The notes under the pieces: generated by a model
The model's input: only the letters and a program-made list of their open reading frames with translations
What the model was told of the DNA's origin: nothing
The model's database searches: none
Position numbers and translations under genes: made by a program
Shown here: positions 24,856-35,886 of the stretch, one piece after another
Numbering within the stretch: the first letter of the stretch is position 1
Layout: the number at the start of each line of letters is the position of its first letter
Assembly: GCF_017875315.1 (NCBI RefSeq)
Contig: NZ_JAGGMM010000002.1
Location: 124,001 to 188,000, forward strand
Direction of reading: 5' to 3'
From: Methanomicrobium sp. W14
Lineage (GTDB): Archaea > Halobacteriota > Methanomicrobia > Methanomicrobiales > Methanomicrobiaceae
Length of the DNA stretch: 64,000 nt

Positions 24856-24926
24856 GCACCGATGGTCTAGTGGTATGACTTTGGCCTTCCAAGCCAATAG
24901 CTCGGGTTCAATTCCCGGTCGGTGCA
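24856..24926 (+). tRNA. tRNA-Gly (anticodon TCC)
   Basis: A full cloverleaf is visible: acceptor GCACCGA pairing TCGGTGC, D-arm GTCTAGTGGTATGAC, anticodon stem TTGGC/GCCAA around loop CTTCCAA (anticodon TCC at 24888-24890), and T-arm with GGTTCAATTCC. CCA is not encoded. The AT-rich accessory island begins immediately downstream, so this gene may be an integration target, although I did not find a repeated copy of its 3' end. Confidence 0.97.
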
Positions 24927-25095
24927 CTTCACGTAAAGTTCAGATTTTATCTATTTCTGTGATGTTTTTTTTAAATTCATTGGATATTAGCCATTTACTT
25001 TGTTCGTGCAAAGATATATTATACAAAAAAGTCTATTTCTCATAGATTTCACAGTTTGAGTTGTGATCTCTATAAATTAAAAGGGGGAAATTTAA

Positions 25096-25302
25096 TTGAC
25101 AAAGTACTACGTAAATGATAATACCGACAATCAGGGCAATCACGAAGTGCATAAAGAAGGTTGCTCTTGGTTAAAGCTTGTTGTAAGTTCTACATATCTT
25201 GGAGAGTTTAGCAGCTGTAAAGATGCTGTTGCTGCAGCTAAAAAGATTTATTCAACAGCTGACGGAGATATTCATTGTATACCGGAATGCAATAACGGTT
25301 GA
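25096..25302 (+). CDS. Small conserved soluble protein (68 residues), function unknown
   Basis: Starts at TTG behind a strong AGGGGG site. The pattern KYYVNDNTDNQGNHEVHKEGC, then YLGEFSSCKDAVAAAKK and a final CIPECNNG, resembles a widespread family of short bacterial and archaeal proteins with spaced Cys residues, for which I know no function. The three Cys (residues 23, 41 and one of the last pair) may bind metal or form disulfides. It is probably mobile-island cargo, sitting just downstream of tRNA-Gly. The conserved pattern makes it a real gene. Confidence 0.75.
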   Translation: MTKYYVNDNTDNQGNHEVHKEGCSWLKLVVSSTYLGEFSSCKDAVAAAKKIYSTADGDIHCIPECNNG

Positions 25303-25564
25303 CTCTGAATTAAAAAGTAATTCTAATCTCCTGATGAAAGATAAATTAACCTTTTTCTCACTTTCACTTCACCCGCTCAACTGGTATTAATGCTACAGGT
25401 GATTTTTCATAGGGTGAATTTGAATCATGATCTTATAGCATAATAAATACAGCTATACCATAAAGATCAAAATATATCTTGAAAAAACAAATGAATCGTA
25501 AAAGATGCTCTTTCAAAGAATAGGCAGATATATATACCAAAATAATTCTAATGAGAGATAAAGC

Positions 25565-26647
25565 ATGAAAGATGTTCTACCAGGCTTAAATAATCAAAAT
25601 ATTAAAAAAATCTGGGACATTGCAAGGATTCTTGAACTAAAAAGAAAAACAGAATCTGATTTCAATAATGTCCATATTATACCAGCAATTTCTACTTTCA
25701 GGTCTGCTGAAGAGTTTTTTAAAAGTTTAGATGATGCAGGTTTTAGAGTTGATGGTGGATTTGGTAAATTGCTGTATATTTCTAAAGAGTTGGGTGGAGA
25801 CAGAGTAGTATTTTATGTTTTTTATGATGAATCAACAAATATCTCTCTTTTCATAACGACTGCAAAGAAATCTAAGGAAATTCCTGATGTTTTATTCAAA
25901 TACATAAATCATGAAAGGAATATTTCTAATCTTTGGATCTCACCCTGTACAATGAAAGAAATAAAGGACGATCTGTCTGGAAAGTATGAAAAAATGATGA
26001 TTACATATTTTTCAGCAAGGAGAGGAACAAGTACTGATATTAAAGCTGAAATTCGTCCGGAAATAAGTAGGAGTATAATTTACCGTGGTCTTGATGGTAA
26101 AAAAACGCTTGAAGAACTGGAATATTACTACGGGGTATTGCCTAAAATCTTAGAGATTAAGCTTCCAAATGGTGTACATTTTAAAATAGATAATAAGGGT
26201 ATTATTACATTAAATGATGGAAGATTTGATGAAATTTTTAAAATATTGGATTATATCATTGAAAAAATAATTACTGTGAAGAATGCAATAAACGAATCAG
26301 AATACAAAATATTCAATATTGGAAAAAATAAGCAGTTTAGGCATGCTTTGCAGAAACCTTGGTCGGTAATAATTTCTAGAAATATAGATATTGGCAGTAT
26401 GCCAAAAATCTGTAAATCATTTAATAGTGAAGAGTGGAATTTTACTCTCTTGGAAAGTGTATTGATATCAGGTTCACTTTTGTTCACAGCAAGATTAATT
26501 GACAATTATTCAGGAACAAAATTTGATATTTCTATGATTGGAAACAGGATAGATATCTTCCCTGTTGATGAAACAGATATCGGCTCATCAATACGCTTTT
26601 ATGAGTTTATTCTCGAAAATATTGATAATTCTGCTATAACTGGGTGA
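25565..26647 (+). CDS. Unknown protein, first gene of a coupled pair with a nuclease-like protein
   Basis: A 360-residue soluble protein I do not recognise. It has no membrane segments or obvious catalytic motif. Secondary-structure feel is mixed alpha/beta, with VHIIPAISTFRSAEEFFKSL near the start, an Arg-rich YFSARRGTST (about 156-165), and KLPNGVHFKIDNKGIITLNDG (about 199-219) that reads like a beta domain. Codons are strongly A/T rich compared with flanking housekeeping genes, which suggests transfer. Its stop overlaps the start of the next gene by 4 bases (GTGA), so the two are translated together and probably work together. Defence or element-maintenance is my guess from context only. 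Confidence 0.75.
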   Translation: MKDVLPGLNNQNIKKIWDIARILELKRKTESDFNNVHIIPAISTFRSAEEFFKSLDDAGFRVDGGFGKLLYISKELGGDRVVFYVFYDESTNISLFITTAKKSKEIPDVLFKYINHERNISNLWISPCTMKEIKDDLSGKYEKMMITYFSARRGTSTDIKAEIRPEISRSIIYRGLDGKKTLEELEYYYGVLPKILEIKLPNGVHFKIDNKGIITLNDGRFDEIFKILDYIIEKIITVKNAINESEYKIFNIGKNKQFRHALQKPWSVIISRNIDIGSMPKICKSFNSEEWNFTLLESVLISGSLLFTARLIDNYSGTKFDISMIGNRIDIFPVDETDIGSSIRFYEFILENIDNSAITG

Positions 26648-27819
26648 TATATATCACAAAAAATGAAATTCCTTATCCAACTGAGACATATCAGGAGTTT
26701 TATAAAAGGGCACCAAAACATATTAAAGCAAAACTTGAAGAAATAAAGAAAAGAAAAAAAGAATATTTTCTTCCGTCAAAAAGAGAAGATTTGTCTGAAG
26801 AGATTCAGACTGATACAAATCATCATGAGTTAATGAAACTCTGTGTGAAAGGATTTGCGCAGACTAGATTATCCCAAAATTCTGGCTATGAATTTTATTT
26901 TGCAGAGCCATTAATTGAATTAGCATCTTATGATTTTGAATTTGCCTCTCAAGAATTAGGAGACAAAAGTTTTGATCTCTTTTTATATAATGAAAAAGAG
27001 AATCGTTGCATTTTTATTGAATGTAAAAGTTCTGTTGATAAAGCAAATAAGATACTAGAGGAAATAGAAAATTCAAAGCAGAATGTTTTAAAAAACATTG
27101 ATTATTTATCTGAAATAGTTGATATCAAGCTTGATCCATCTAGATTTGAATATGTAGCTGCAGTATATGACATAGATAGTGATAAAATTCTAAAATCATT
27201 AACTGATAAAAAAAACAAAGGTAAATACAATACAAAATTGTGGGTTTACAAACCTCATTCCAATGTAATTCAGTTATATCATAATCATAAACATGATAAT
27301 AAAATTCTTACTGAATTTCTTCTTAAAGGATTTGGAAATAGTGAAGCTAGGTCAAGATTTGATTTGTCATGCTGTATTACCACGCATAAATTCAGACAAA
27401 TCATTATTCTCATAATAAGTGAATGCTATAATAACAATTATCAGTTAGATAAAGAAGATCCGAAGATTATCAGTATTTTAGACATAGAAAAAATCATGTG
27501 TAAAAAAATTTCTATGGGGATTTCAGGAGATGATAAAAGAAAATTCATAAAGCAAAGACTTCAGGGCATAATTAAGTACGGCATTAAATATCAGTTATTT
27601 CAAAAAATAGGTAACGACAGAATAAGATTACTTTGTCAGGGTGAAAAATTAGATGTTGTAGTGAAAAATATTAAAGAAAAATATATTAAAAATTGGACTG
27701 ATGCAAAAGCCGAAAAAGCGAGCTATCCAGCAGCGATTGATGAATACCGAAAAGAAATAAGAGATTTCGGAGAACAAAAATTACTGAATGATTGGTTTGA
27801 CGACAAAAGTCTAAAATGA
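26644..27819 (+). CDS. PD-(D/E)XK nuclease-like protein of an unknown two-gene system
   Basis: A 391-residue protein starting with GTG that overlaps the stop of the preceding gene. Residues 105-135 contain LGDKSFDLFLYNEKENR followed by CIFIECKSSVDKA: Asp111, Glu126 and Lys128 form the D-x(n)-E-x-K core of the PD-(D/E)XK nuclease fold, and Glu89/Glu92 in FAEPLIE could supply the upstream acid. A helix rich in Lys (26-42) precedes it; the C-terminal 230 residues are not recognised. A/T-rich codons match its partner. Restriction-like or other antiviral activity is plausible but unproven. Confidence 0.75.
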   Translation: MIYITKNEIPYPTETYQEFYKRAPKHIKAKLEEIKKRKKEYFLPSKREDLSEEIQTDTNHHELMKLCVKGFAQTRLSQNSGYEFYFAEPLIELASYDFEFASQELGDKSFDLFLYNEKENRCIFIECKSSVDKANKILEEIENSKQNVLKNIDYLSEIVDIKLDPSRFEYVAAVYDIDSDKILKSLTDKKNKGKYNTKLWVYKPHSNVIQLYHNHKHDNKILTEFLLKGFGNSEARSRFDLSCCITTHKFRQIIILIISECYNNNYQLDKEDPKIISILDIEKIMCKKISMGISGDDKRKFIKQRLQGIIKYGIKYQLFQKIGNDRIRLLCQGEKLDVVVKNIKEKYIKNWTDAKAEKASYPAAIDEYRKEIRDFGEQKLLNDWFDDKSLK

Positions 27820-28037: not shown

Positions 28038-28361
28038 TTATGCTTTTTTGCTTCTCTGTTCCAGTTCTATAAGTATTAGTTTTATCAGGGGATTGTCAGT
28101 GTTTTTTAAGATCTCGGCCCTTAGTTCATTGTCATTTTCAGCTTTTTTATAGTCTTGTGTGGTGTATTTGGCTGAAGATTCTGCAACGCCTGTTGCCTGA
28201 TTAGAAAAGAACCTTTCCGTATATTCCTCGCAGGCCCTTATTATTTCTGTGGAACGGTCAGTCCGGTTTTCGTAACTTATTTGTTCCAGTTTTTCAACTA
28301 GATTTGGAGGCATTCTGGTAGTAACCATTTTGTAGTGTTTTTTCTCTAATGGTTTTGCCAT
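28038..28361 (-). CDS. Ribbon-helix-helix DNA-binding protein
   Basis: A 107-residue protein whose residues 11-52 fit an RHH (CopG/MetJ-like) fold: KMVTTRMPPNLVEKLEQI (strand then helix) and TDRSTEIIRACEEYTERFF. The C-terminal tail is charged and helical (YKKAENDNELRAEIL; LIKLILIELEQRSKK). It starts 9 bases from a cluster of GTATTAC-like repeats (28370-28475) that look like its own operator. A role as autoregulated repressor or plasmid/element copy-control protein is inferred. Confidence 0.75.
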   Translation of the reverse strand: MAKPLEKKHYKMVTTRMPPNLVEKLEQISYENRTDRSTEIIRACEEYTERFFSNQATGVAESSAKYTTQDYKKAENDNELRAEILKNTDNPLIKLILIELEQRSKKA

Positions 28362-28369
28362 TTGCTACT

Positions 28370-28475
28370 GTATTACAACATATTATTGTATTATAATTTG
28401 TAATATTCAGGAATACCAAGTAATACCAAAAAGTATTTATGCATTTTAAGTATTACATAAAATACACAGTAATAC
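28370..28475. repeat. Six-copy GTATTAC/GTAATAC array upstream of the RHH gene
   Basis: Seven-base units occur at 28370 (GTATTAC), 28388 (GTATTAT), 28400 (GTAATAT), 28420 (GTAATAC), 28450 (GTATTAC) and 28469 (GTAATAC), in mixed orientations with 12-30 base steps. Such short alternating repeats beside an RHH gene usually mark an operator, or iterons of a replication origin. Confidence 0.65.
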
Positions 28476-28760
28476 AAAAAATTTATCCTGACCTGGTAAC
28501 CGAAATGACTAAAAAAGGAGTTTTCAGGACGGGGTATCAGGCTATAAAAGAGTAACAGTGAATCAGTGTTTAAAGGCCCATGAAGACGAATTCGGTTAAA
28601 CTGAAAAACCAGACTTCTGAAAAATTTTCGGGAAAAACCATTGAAAACTAAAAAAACCAAAAATATCGGAAGTTTTATCAAAAAACCGCTATGATTTATC
28701 CGAGGCCATAATGCTTGAAAATAAAAACAAATTGCGGTATCCCCGGTCAGAGACTCTAAA

Positions 28761-29233
28761 GCAAACCACTATGCTAGAAGACGCCCGGACATAGGCCCCC
28801 TTATGCCCGAAGTTTTAAGTGGTGCAAACCAGTATCCTGAAAGTTTTAAGTTAAGGCCGTAAGGATACTTTAATCCGGAAATTACAGAAAAAACGGCAGG
28901 TTATTCTTTGGAATTACCAGTGTAATTTCGGCAAAGAAGAAGCCGGCCTGAAAAACAATAGTCTGAGAGATTAAAAATTTGAAAAGAGATCAAATGTAGA
29001 AAAGGGCGGTTACATCAATAATTGCCGTTCTCCCCCCATCGGAACAAACAGCTACATCCGAGAGGCCGGGAATACCAGCAACGAACACTATAATCCTGGG
29101 TTAATACTGAAAAGGAAAGACGACCCCCAATTAAAAGACCCTTTACGAACAGGGCTTTCTTTGCCATACCGTAAAGGTCAGGGGAGAGGAAAGGGATTTT
29201 CCTGTAAGGTTATCATTGCTATCCCTTTTTTTT
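28761..29233. other. Noncoding stretch rich in inverted repeats, possible structured RNA or element origin
   Basis: No convincing gene lies between 28476 and 29624. Within it are serial inverted repeats: ACCACT/AGTGGT (28765-28770 / 28818-28823), AGTATCCT/AGGATACT (28831-28838 / 28862-28869), GAAATTAC/GTAATTTC (28878-28885 / 28922-28929) with a nested AATTAC-CAGT-GTAATT (28912-28927), CCTTTACG/CGTAAAGG (29140-29147 / 29170-29177), and AAAGGGAT/ATCCCTTT followed by a T run (29190-29233), which looks like a + strand terminator. The decamer AAGTTTTAAG is repeated at 28810 and 28841, and GCAAACCA at 28761 and 28824. From 29234 to 29624 the DNA is simply AT-rich. Confidence 0.45.
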
Positions 29234-29624
29234 CTCCTTTTTTTCTGACCTGAACCTTAATCCGGGGATTATCTGTCGTTTCTGCCATATTTTTTTCAAA
29301 CTACTTTTTTAGTGTTATAAAGCACGCAAAAATGCTGTTATTTCCTGTATTCAGGACATAACCCACATATAAAATTTCAAATTGAAAAGTAAATTTCACT
29401 ATTAATCTAATATATTATACTCTTATATAATATTATTATATGATTAAATAACATATTAGGCCAATTAAGGAATTGCTTAATTACAGCAATATCCTGCCTT
29501 TTTCCAAAAACATGGGGAAAAATAATCTAAAATCTGATTTAAAGAAAAATTCCAGAGTGAAGCAATTTTATTATTTCTTAAATCCCATTAATTTTTCCAA
29601 AAAATTCTTGCGGATTGAAATGTA

Positions 29625-33956: not shown

Positions 33957-34251
33957 AAGTCGTAAGCTAATACAATAAGAGTAATCTGATATAGCGTTTG
34001 TGTCAGTTGCAAGAATTTTTTTGTTTTGGGTTCGTGATTCGTAAAAGATTTGCAGTATAAGTGAATTATTTTAAGTAAAAGATTTAAAAAAACAGTCACC
34101 TGGTAAAATAGTGTGGTAAAATAGTGAGGATTGTGCAGGAAACCGGGCTGAAATAATCTTTTTTTCTGTTTATTATGGTGGTTATTTTTGCGATGTTTCA
34201 AAACCATTAATATTCTGGAAATTTATACAAAGTAGGGATAGATTAAACCGT

Positions 34252-34325
34252 GGACTTGTGGTCTAGCTGGTTATGACGTCGCCTTCACACGGCGGAGATC
34301 GGGCGTTCGAATCGCCCCGAGTCCA
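34252..34325 (+). tRNA. tRNA-Val (anticodon CAC)
   Basis: Cloverleaf: acceptor GGACTTG/CGAGTCC, D-arm GTCTAGCTGGTTATGAC, anticodon stem TCGCC/GGCGG (one G-T pair) with loop TTCACAC (anticodon CAC), and T-arm GGGCG-TTCGAAT-CGCCC. CCA is not encoded. Its 3' half is overlapped by a small gene on the opposite strand, and AT-rich accessory DNA starts directly downstream. Confidence 0.96.
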
Positions 34326-34525
34326 TTTCCTTCGTTGTTTTGTAAAATAAAGACTAGATTGTTGTTTGTTTTATTTCTAAGCTCATTTAAAGCGTTATCT
34401 GTAAATCGGGACAAGTTAAGCCCTTTATTCCTGATATACTCAAAATTTTCAGGGCTAATTGTAATGTCCTTTCTTTTTCGTAAATCCTGAATTGGCTTTC
34501 TTTTTCGTTTTTCTCTCTTTTCCAT
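34271..34525 (-). CDS. Small ribbon-helix-helix-like protein reading into tRNA-Val
   Basis: An 84-residue frame. The first 32 residues are highly basic (MEKREKRKRKPIQDLRKRKD), then ITISPENFEYIRNKG and LNLSRFTDNALNELRNK give a strand-helix-helix pattern typical of archaeal RHH proteins. The final 16 residues (GAIRTPDLRRVKATS-like) are simply the antisense of tRNA-Val and are not protein-like, so the frame has been joined to the tRNA, as happens at an integration site. A perfect palindrome (34550-34567) lies just upstream as likely operator. Confidence 0.6.
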   Translation of the reverse strand: MEKREKRKRKPIQDLRKRKDITISPENFEYIRNKGLNLSRFTDNALNELRNKTNNNLVFILQNNEGNGLGAIRTPDLRRVKATS

Positions 34526-34540
34526 TTCTCTTTTCTCCTA

Positions 34541-34567
34541 TGTGTATGAATGTGTATTTATACACAT
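34541..34567. promoter_or_regulatory. Palindromic operator candidate upstream of the RHH gene
   Basis: ATGTGTAT-TT-ATACACAT (34550-34567) is a perfect 8-base inverted repeat. A further TGTGTAT half-site lies at 34541-34547, nine bases before the next one. Position about 20 bases upstream of the RHH start fits autoregulation. Confidence 0.55.
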
Positions 34568-34700
34568 AATTTACCGGACTTAATGTCAGTTTAATAGACC
34601 ATAAACTGAAGGTTCCAAAAAGGTTACTCTTACTTTGAAAGGTGGTTAACAGGCTGCTGTGCAACCCGCTATTTTTGTAATATGGGATTAGTTTCTGATT

Positions 34701-34889
34701 ATGAAACGGCTGAAATATCTTTTAGGTAAATATCACATAGATGTACTAACACCGGCTGAAGAATCCGAACTTAAGGAGATCATAATTCATAGAGAACCCA
34801 GGGCGGCTGAGTGGACTATAAAAGAAATATATGATTTAGGTCTTGTAATTGTAGGGGCTGATTGTATCTTTAAAAAATTGTTGGCTTAA
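34701..34889 (+). CDS. Small protein (62 residues), unknown
   Basis: Encodes MKRLKYLLGKYHIDVLTPAE with a central acidic helix and a hydrophobic end (LGLVIVGADCIFKKLLA). The N-terminal half resembles short antitoxin- or virus-type proteins in length only. It may be cargo of the accessory patch downstream of tRNA-Val. No homologue recognised; start is ATG with no strong Shine-Dalgarno. Confidence 0.45.
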   Translation: MKRLKYLLGKYHIDVLTPAEESELKEIIIHREPRAAEWTIKEIYDLGLVIVGADCIFKKLLA

Positions 34890-34896
34890 ATTTTTT

Positions 34897-35886
34897 TTAT
34901 TCTTTCTCTTTTTTAATTTTGTTTTCTTCTTCTGTTTGCCATATCTCCTTATCAAAGTCATAATATTCACAAAAACTATCATAGATAGTTTGATAATTTT
35001 TGTATAAACCATGGTTTGGAGGAAAACTAAATATCATAATTCCTTTTTCTCTTAGAAGCTGAGCATCTTCAAAATCTTGAGCGTAATAATTATAAAATTC
35101 TGTTTTAAGAAACTCCATAATTTCTTCTGGTTTGCTAAAGGTCTTTGCTTGACCAAACACTTTCACAAAAAAAGCATTTAATTGTGAATCAATAATTCCT
35201 CTTTCTTTGTAAAAATCAAAATTATTTATCAGATTTTCAATTTTTTGAAGATTAACATTGAAATCTTTACTTAGTTCGTAGATATTTGCAATAGCTCCTT
35301 TTGGTATTGAAAAATATTGGTTGAGTAATATGTATCTTAGATTTACAAAATAAAAATATGCAGTTGTACTAAAATATTTATAGTGAAAGTTATTTCCCTC
35401 ATTCCAATCAGTATCAGAAAATTGTTTTGGCATCCAATTCCATTTTTTTGTCAATTTATATTCATCAAATCGTGAATTAACAATAGGAATGAATTTATTT
35501 AATTGATTCTTATTATTTTCAATTTCTTTTAATAATGTTTTTAAAGCATTGACATAATCAAGTCTTTTTATTTCATCTTGATTGAAATATACTGTAATTG
35601 TTGAAAACATAATTGAAAGTGTTATTCCAAGTGCAAAGGAGAATGGAGAAAAATAGATGCTGTTTCCATCAAAGAATATTCTATTCTGAGACAAATTTTC
35701 ATTAGTTTGTAAAAAAAGATTACACAATAACATAAGAAACATATAAGTGGTAAATGATATCATGAAAACCGCTGAAATATATATTAGCCAAATAAAACGA
35801 TGTTTTTTTAATGGATGATATAATTTTAATTGAATTGATTTCTTAAATGATTTTAATAGATCTTTCTTTGTTGTTTCTTCCCCCAT
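34897..35886 (-). CDS. Predicted two-helix membrane protein, unknown, AT-rich
   Basis: A 329-residue protein with a basic N-terminus (KKSIQLKLYHPLKKHR), membrane helices at about 31-59 and 79-101, and a long cytoplasmic C-terminal domain (105-329) rich in Asn, Phe, Tyr and Lys. This domain contains INQ/NN-rich helices such as LKTLLKEIENNKNQLNKFIP. Topology resembles small membrane effectors found in defence islands, but I see no known effector motif. A/T-rich codons set it apart from flanking genes and support recent transfer. Confidence 0.65.
   Translation of the reverse strand: MGEETTKKDLLKSFKKSIQLKLYHPLKKHRFIWLIYISAVFMISFTTYMFLMLLCNLFLQTNENLSQNRIFFDGNSIYFSPFSFALGITLSIMFSTITVYFNQDEIKRLDYVNALKTLLKEIENNKNQLNKFIPIVNSRFDEYKLTKKWNWMPKQFSDTDWNEGNNFHYKYFSTTAYFYFVNLRYILLNQYFSIPKGAIANIYELSKDFNVNLQKIENLINNFDFYKERGIIDSQLNAFFVKVFGQAKTFSKPEEIMEFLKTEFYNYYAQDFEDAQLLREKGIMIFSFPPNHGLYKNYQTIYDSFCEYYDFDKEIWQTEEENKIKKEKE

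Follow-up and report, generated by a model that had tools for sequence, protein, structure and literature searches.

The gene pair P1-P2 recurs across archaeal genomes as a coupled two-gene unit, and we consider it, with a probability of roughly 0.55, to be an undescribed accessory defence cassette of archaea and proviruses, in which P1 would provide recognition and P2 would be the nuclease. An antiviral system is the best reading because the pair is patchily distributed, is exchanged as a cassette, and has defence genes beside several of its copies. In our model, P1 would be in complex with P2 and would recognise invading nucleic acid or a viral component, and P2 would cut DNA, be it that of the invader or the cell's own (abortive infection). 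Two haloarchaeal branches have a P2 that has lost its catalytic residues, and there the effect would come instead from a membrane protein whose gene lies immediately 5' of P1.

The gene pair and its site

The window, a stretch of 64,000 nucleotides from Methanomicrobium sp. W14, encodes P1 at 25565..26647 and P2 at 26644..27819, both on the plus strand. According to the ORF list, P1 has 360 aa and starts with ATG, P2 has 391 aa and starts with GTG, and the start of P2 overlaps the stop of P1 by 4 nt (GTGA), which are the sizes and the overlap that a sequence-only reading of this DNA had given. The A/T-richness that it described is also evident in the GC profile, in which the pair has a GC content of 29.2% compared to 44.4% in the remaining window. 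A candidate archaeal TATA box (GATATATATACC, 25527..25538, plus strand), recognised by its sequence, lies ~30 nt before the start of P1. Furthermore, a perfect palindrome (TGATATATATCA, 26645-26656) extends across the start of P2; it is similar to the TATA-like box ahead of P1 (repeat D13) and may serve as a second promoter or as an operator.

The left border of the variable site is a tRNA-Gly (TCC) gene (24856..24927, plus strand; ARAGORN and Rfam tRNA). Between it and P1 lies an ORF of 68 aa with a TTG start (25096-25302), which matches phrog_4298 (E 2.8e-18, function unknown), and P2 is followed by a convergent gene on the minus strand (28038-28361) for a ribbon-helix-helix-like regulator of 107 aa (phrog_876, E 4e-5). 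Neither gene is common to other P1-P2 loci, and therefore, both were excluded from the unit. The ~1.2 kb between the regulator and a phosphotransferase-like gene (28400-29600) contain hardly any credible ORF and gave no Rfam match. A second AT-rich stretch (34251-35886, 26% GC) adjoins tRNA-Val, encodes a protein of 329 aa that has hydrophobic segments in its N-terminal part, and is possibly another variable site.

HtpX, tRNA-Gly, and an MFS gene are common to sister genomes, in which tRNA-Gly adjoins HtpX as well. In G393 and G395, the P1-P2 stretch is absent and the MFS gene lies ~180 bp after tRNA-Gly with no gene in between; in G394, two or three small, ordinary genes separate the two, and in G198 the tRNA-Gly site holds ~8 kb, including genes for a DNA methylase, a 756-aa GHKL-ATPase-like protein, and a 413-aa protein. 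The tRNA-Gly site is thus variable, being empty in two of these genomes and differently filled in the others. In a sister genome (L175, 4035-8807, same tRNA-Gly site), methylase, GHKL-ATPase-like protein, and 413-aa protein are encoded in one operon, which may be a separate defence candidate. The earlier description of a mobile AT-rich island at tRNA-Gly thus stands with respect to a strain-variable AT-rich insert. Its mobility can be inferred from patchiness only, since no integrase was found among the window ORFs at the island and a repeat search in the window revealed no att-like repeat of the tRNA end.

Predicted folds of P2 and P1

An alignment of 52 nonredundant P2 sequences places the putative active-site residues of P2 at E88 (26905-26907), D111 (26974-26976), E126 (27019-27021), and K128 (27025-27027), all on the plus strand. 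The numbering of D111 and E126-x-K128 in the sequence-only reading is correct, and the acidic residue E88 is conserved in addition to that motif. The AlphaFold2 model of P2 from the family alignment (mean pLDDT, 85) has strands at residues 82-87, 112-116, and 121-128 with a helix (134-150) after them, and model and alignment together put D, E-x-K, and the upstream E in register on the core strands. By VIA-align, the predicted PD-(D/E)XK-type core (26815..27321, plus strand; residues ~58-226) resembles many solved nucleases with no single decisive match, the Z scores being 9.8 at the top for Upx, 8.8 for XisH, 8.7 for NucS/EndoMS, 8.6 for BsmI, and 8.5 for Can2. It is followed by a predicted winged-helix-like domain (27379..27678, plus strand; residues ~246-345), for which VIA-align gave JetC, ORC, and the DpnI winged helix with Z scores of 6.5 to 7.4. 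Motif and predicted fold agree with the PD-(D/E)XK-type core claimed for the second gene; we propose that P2 is a nuclease effector, and it may cleave DNA in a metal-dependent manner.

Searches with P2 in PADLOC, Pfam, and NCBIfam gave no match with a meaningful score, and neither P1 nor P2 matched PADLOC-DB 2.0.0 up to an E value of 5. Profile searches of PDB sequences gave no match for P1 and only chance matches of the coiled-coil type for P2. Weak P2 matches in archaeal proteins of 1100-1150 aa were dismissed as unspecific, as was a parallel weak NCBIfam match to the DNA polymerase II large subunit (polC, E 0.004).

P1 had been described as a protein with no known domain. This is true of Pfam, NCBIfam, and PADLOC, in which P1 has no match, but P1 does have a family, phrog_24372 of PHROGs (E 1.3e-59, function unknown), and its predicted fold is recognisable. 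The AlphaFold2 model from the family alignment (mean pLDDT, 85) has an RdgC/CENP-L-like region (residues ~22-244), followed by a TBP/CENP-N/RnlA-like C-terminal domain (~259-360). Foldseek matched the model to RdgC (E 4.5e-4, probability 1.00) and to Iml3 (E 4.7e-4, probability 0.99). VIA-align likewise related P1 to RdgC and CENP-L over its N-terminal two thirds and to CENP-N/Chl4, RnlA, and TBP over its last 100 residues; the Z scores, 7.4 for RnlA and 8 to 9 for RdgC, CENP-L, and the CENP-N/Chl4 domain, are of a level reachable by common arrangements and would indicate at most a common arrangement, not a common function. The RdgC family profile did not match P1 in the Pfam or NCBIfam scans. 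A family that is missing from the lists of these fold searches is not thereby excluded. We propose P1 as a sensor or scaffold.

The predicted likeness of the P1 C-terminal domain to the TBP-like domain of the toxin RnlA would also suit a toxin-antitoxin or addiction pair, with P2 as a DNase toxin that is restrained by P1, and so would overlapping genes that occur patchily and on mobile elements. However, both proteins have 350-410 aa and are above the usual size for such modules, and the pair is retained in two clades in which P2 appears, from its residues, to be catalytically dead. We therefore consider an addiction pair quite unlikely.

Occurrence, cassette exchange, and neighbouring genes

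At every P1 locus, save for contigs that end inside P2, P2 follows P1, adjacent and in the same order, and most of the junctions are overlaps or gaps of a few bases. Since homologues recur in this arrangement in tens of archaeal genomes, the pair is not a product of chance, and the coupled two-gene unit postulated from the single locus is borne out. Whole-genome searches revealed the pair in records of Methanoculleus, Methanofollis, Methanoregula, and Methanothrix, in other Halobacteriota, in many haloarchaea (54 of 392 genomes, roughly one in seven of those sampled), and in one Thermoplasmata MAG. It is present in 6/120 genomes of the order to which the window belongs and, among the searched genomes of the genus, in the window's own genome only. 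Genome and viral contigs gave no matches when scanned with single sequences, and a 17-row alignment was too diverse for use. Among the intact haloarchaeal versions with two genes is one on the Halorubrum lacusprofundi plasmid NC_012030. Two P1 matches in Gastranaerophilales failed the profile and were without P2, and therefore, no bacterial member is claimed.

The patchy occurrence bears on a possible role as an accessory of cellular DNA repair or recombination. The predicted RdgC-like and NucS/EndoMS-like folds would be in line with such a role, and AddAB-like genes adjoin the cassette in one haloarchaeal clade; yet the pair is missing from most relatives, including all other searched genomes of the window's genus, which makes a repair function very doubtful.

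The best viral relative of P1 is found in Haloarcula virus Harhisp1, a pleolipovirus, in which a P2 homologue comes next after P1 with a 4-nt overlap. Its Harhisp1 cassette comprises a c2 gene, P1, and P2. This virus is carried as a provirus by Haloarcula hispanica and was found encapsidated, its circular DNA being recovered with high coverage when a stock of virus was examined (PMC7911831). Another haloarchaeal genome contains a related provirus (L147), which has six DNA blocks in common with Harhisp1 at 77-95% (mostly 87-95%) identity, and the VP1 and Rep proteins of the two are 97% and 90% identical. At the same place between flanking blocks, the identity is only 29% for P1 and 26% for P2, and a single-TM partner gene in Harhisp1 stands against a pentapeptide-TM gene in L147. 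P1-P2 is thus an exchanged accessory cassette in these two proviruses, and since the whole cassette is replaced at one place, it behaves as accessory cargo. The pleolipovirus proviruses L048 and L147 differ chiefly in the cassette region and have near-identical flanks. A CopG/RelE pair is located inside the cassette region of Harhisp1 as well.

The main rival to the defence reading is a role in maintenance or replication, as an accessory of proviruses and plasmids in which P1 would bind DNA, as a partition or RdgC-type protein, and P2 would process ends or intermediates. The cassette does lie next to an Orc1-type rep gene in Harhisp1, in a second provirus, and on several haloarchaeal plasmids, and the RdgC- and CENP-like fold predicted for P1 would suit such a role. 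However, Rep is highly conserved between the two proviruses at the identities given above while P1 and P2 (26-29%) are not, and the cassette is therefore unlike a part of the replication machinery. Furthermore, the window copy and the methanogen copies linked to type I RM have no adjacent integrase or rep gene, and the nuclease motif is missing from whole clades. On balance, we regard a maintenance role as unlikely. The exchangeable cassette of Harhisp1 might also be read as a counter-defence or host-takeover module of viruses that persists in degraded proviruses. This is highly improbable, as only 1 of 50,697 phage records has the cassette and most copies are located on chromosomes or large plasmids, several of them near RM genes.

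Consistent with a defence cassette, several copies have defence-type genes within ~10 kb, encoding type I RM (in Methanoculleus), Eco57I-type methylases, McrC with a DUF1156 methylase, Mrr, HKD-Snf2 helicases, an LmuB-like ATPase, a Schlafen AlbA protein, and an HD phosphohydrolase. PADLOC models numbered 280 near the cassette versus 73 in controls (20 regions of the same genomes), but the two do not differ clearly, as the count is driven by a few methylase loci and the helicase, ABC, and methylase models are unspecific.

Motif loss, membrane-protein partners, and known systems

Among the first 52 nonredundant pairs, 28 have an intact P2 with E or D at position 88 (D in one of them), D111, E126, and K128, and 24 are degraded. 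A gene of a single-TM family lies directly upstream of P1 in 14 of the 24 degraded pairs, and in 5 of the 24, a divergently oriented gene encodes a pentapeptide-repeat protein whose C-terminal part has hydrophobic segments; neither membrane family occurs at P1 in any of the 28 intact pairs. A follow-up set, found after the pattern had been noticed, comprised 19 nonredundant pairs (17 haloarchaeal loci, from which two repeats of earlier contigs had been omitted, and two plasmids). All 19 were concordant, with twelve intact pairs that had neither family and seven degraded pairs with one. Over all 71 nonredundant pairs, a membrane partner is thus present in 0/40 intact versus 26/31 degraded pairs. 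The five degraded exceptions without a recognised partner are L051, in which E126 is changed to S as the sole change, L146, which lies at a contig end, and L149, L150, and L152, in which K128 alone is changed and E-D-E is retained. The degraded groups fall into two separate parts of the P1 tree, with three changes by parsimony; with only two to three independent pairs or losses, the link to membrane proteins is suggestive and carries no formal significance.

The sequence-only reading had held that loss of the D-ExK residues across the family would speak against a nuclease-based antiviral system. One or more of the residues are indeed lost in 31 of the 71 pairs, and they are intact in the other 40; all four are retained in the window copy and in nearly the whole of its methanogen clade. 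Since 26 of the 31 have gained a membrane-protein gene immediately 5' of P1, the loss is more in line with effector replacement than with a family that has no role. A possible third component is encoded in one haloarchaeal branch (L142, L193, and L195), in which P2 is intact and a gene for a 127-aa protein lies immediately upstream of P1 on the same strand. A wider model is tentative and rather doubtful as a whole: P1-P2 could be an undescribed archaeal immune core in which a sensor with a CENP-L/N- and RdgC-like fold commands swappable effectors, either the PD-(D/E)XK nuclease or, in versions with a dead nuclease, a single-TM or pentapeptide-TM protein, and this core would be exchanged by pleolipoviruses and used against rival viruses. 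If effector replacement is true, one sensor would lead to DNA cutting in some hosts and to a membrane effect in others.

Archaeal defence systems other than CRISPR and RM are poorly known, and in nearly a third of archaeal genomes, no system besides these two was detected (PMC12988326). Neither P1 nor P2 is named as a defence component in the defence libraries, and the cassette is carried by a virus of the laboratory species Haloarcula hispanica. Exchangeable defence cassettes are known from prophage-borne elements of the P2/P4 type (PMC9122126). P1-P2 resembles these as an accessory cassette that is swapped at one set position while the rest of the provirus is similar; it differs in that it concerns archaeal pleolipoviruses, of which two proviruses were compared, and in that protection by it is a prediction.

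With the defence nucleases Can2/Card1 (type III CRISPR), LmuA (Lamassu), and HamA (Hachiman), P2 shares the predicted alpha-beta core with E, D, and E-x-K placed as usual (VIA-align Z scores of 8.5 for Can2, 7.2 for LmuA, and 6.9 for HamA); unlike them, it has no CARF domain and no SMC or helicase partner. P1 has the predicted fold in common with RdgC, the recombination-associated DNA-binding ring protein, over ~180 residues (181 aligned; Z 8.3; rmsd 4.2; monomer only), whereas the identity is ~10% with no sequence match, and P1, unlike RdgC, has an additional C-terminal TBP-like domain and is always paired with P2. The N-terminal region of P1 also matches the fold of CENP-L/Iml3 (Z 8.2, 181 aligned) and its C-terminal domain that of CENP-N/Chl4 (Z 8.8, 93 aligned). 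Unlike CENP-L and CENP-N, P1 is archaeal or viral, is a single chain, is coupled to a nuclease, and has no sequence similarity to them; only the predicted fold is in common. If the wider model holds true, this common fold would connect an archaeal antiviral DNA sensor with the inner kinetochore.
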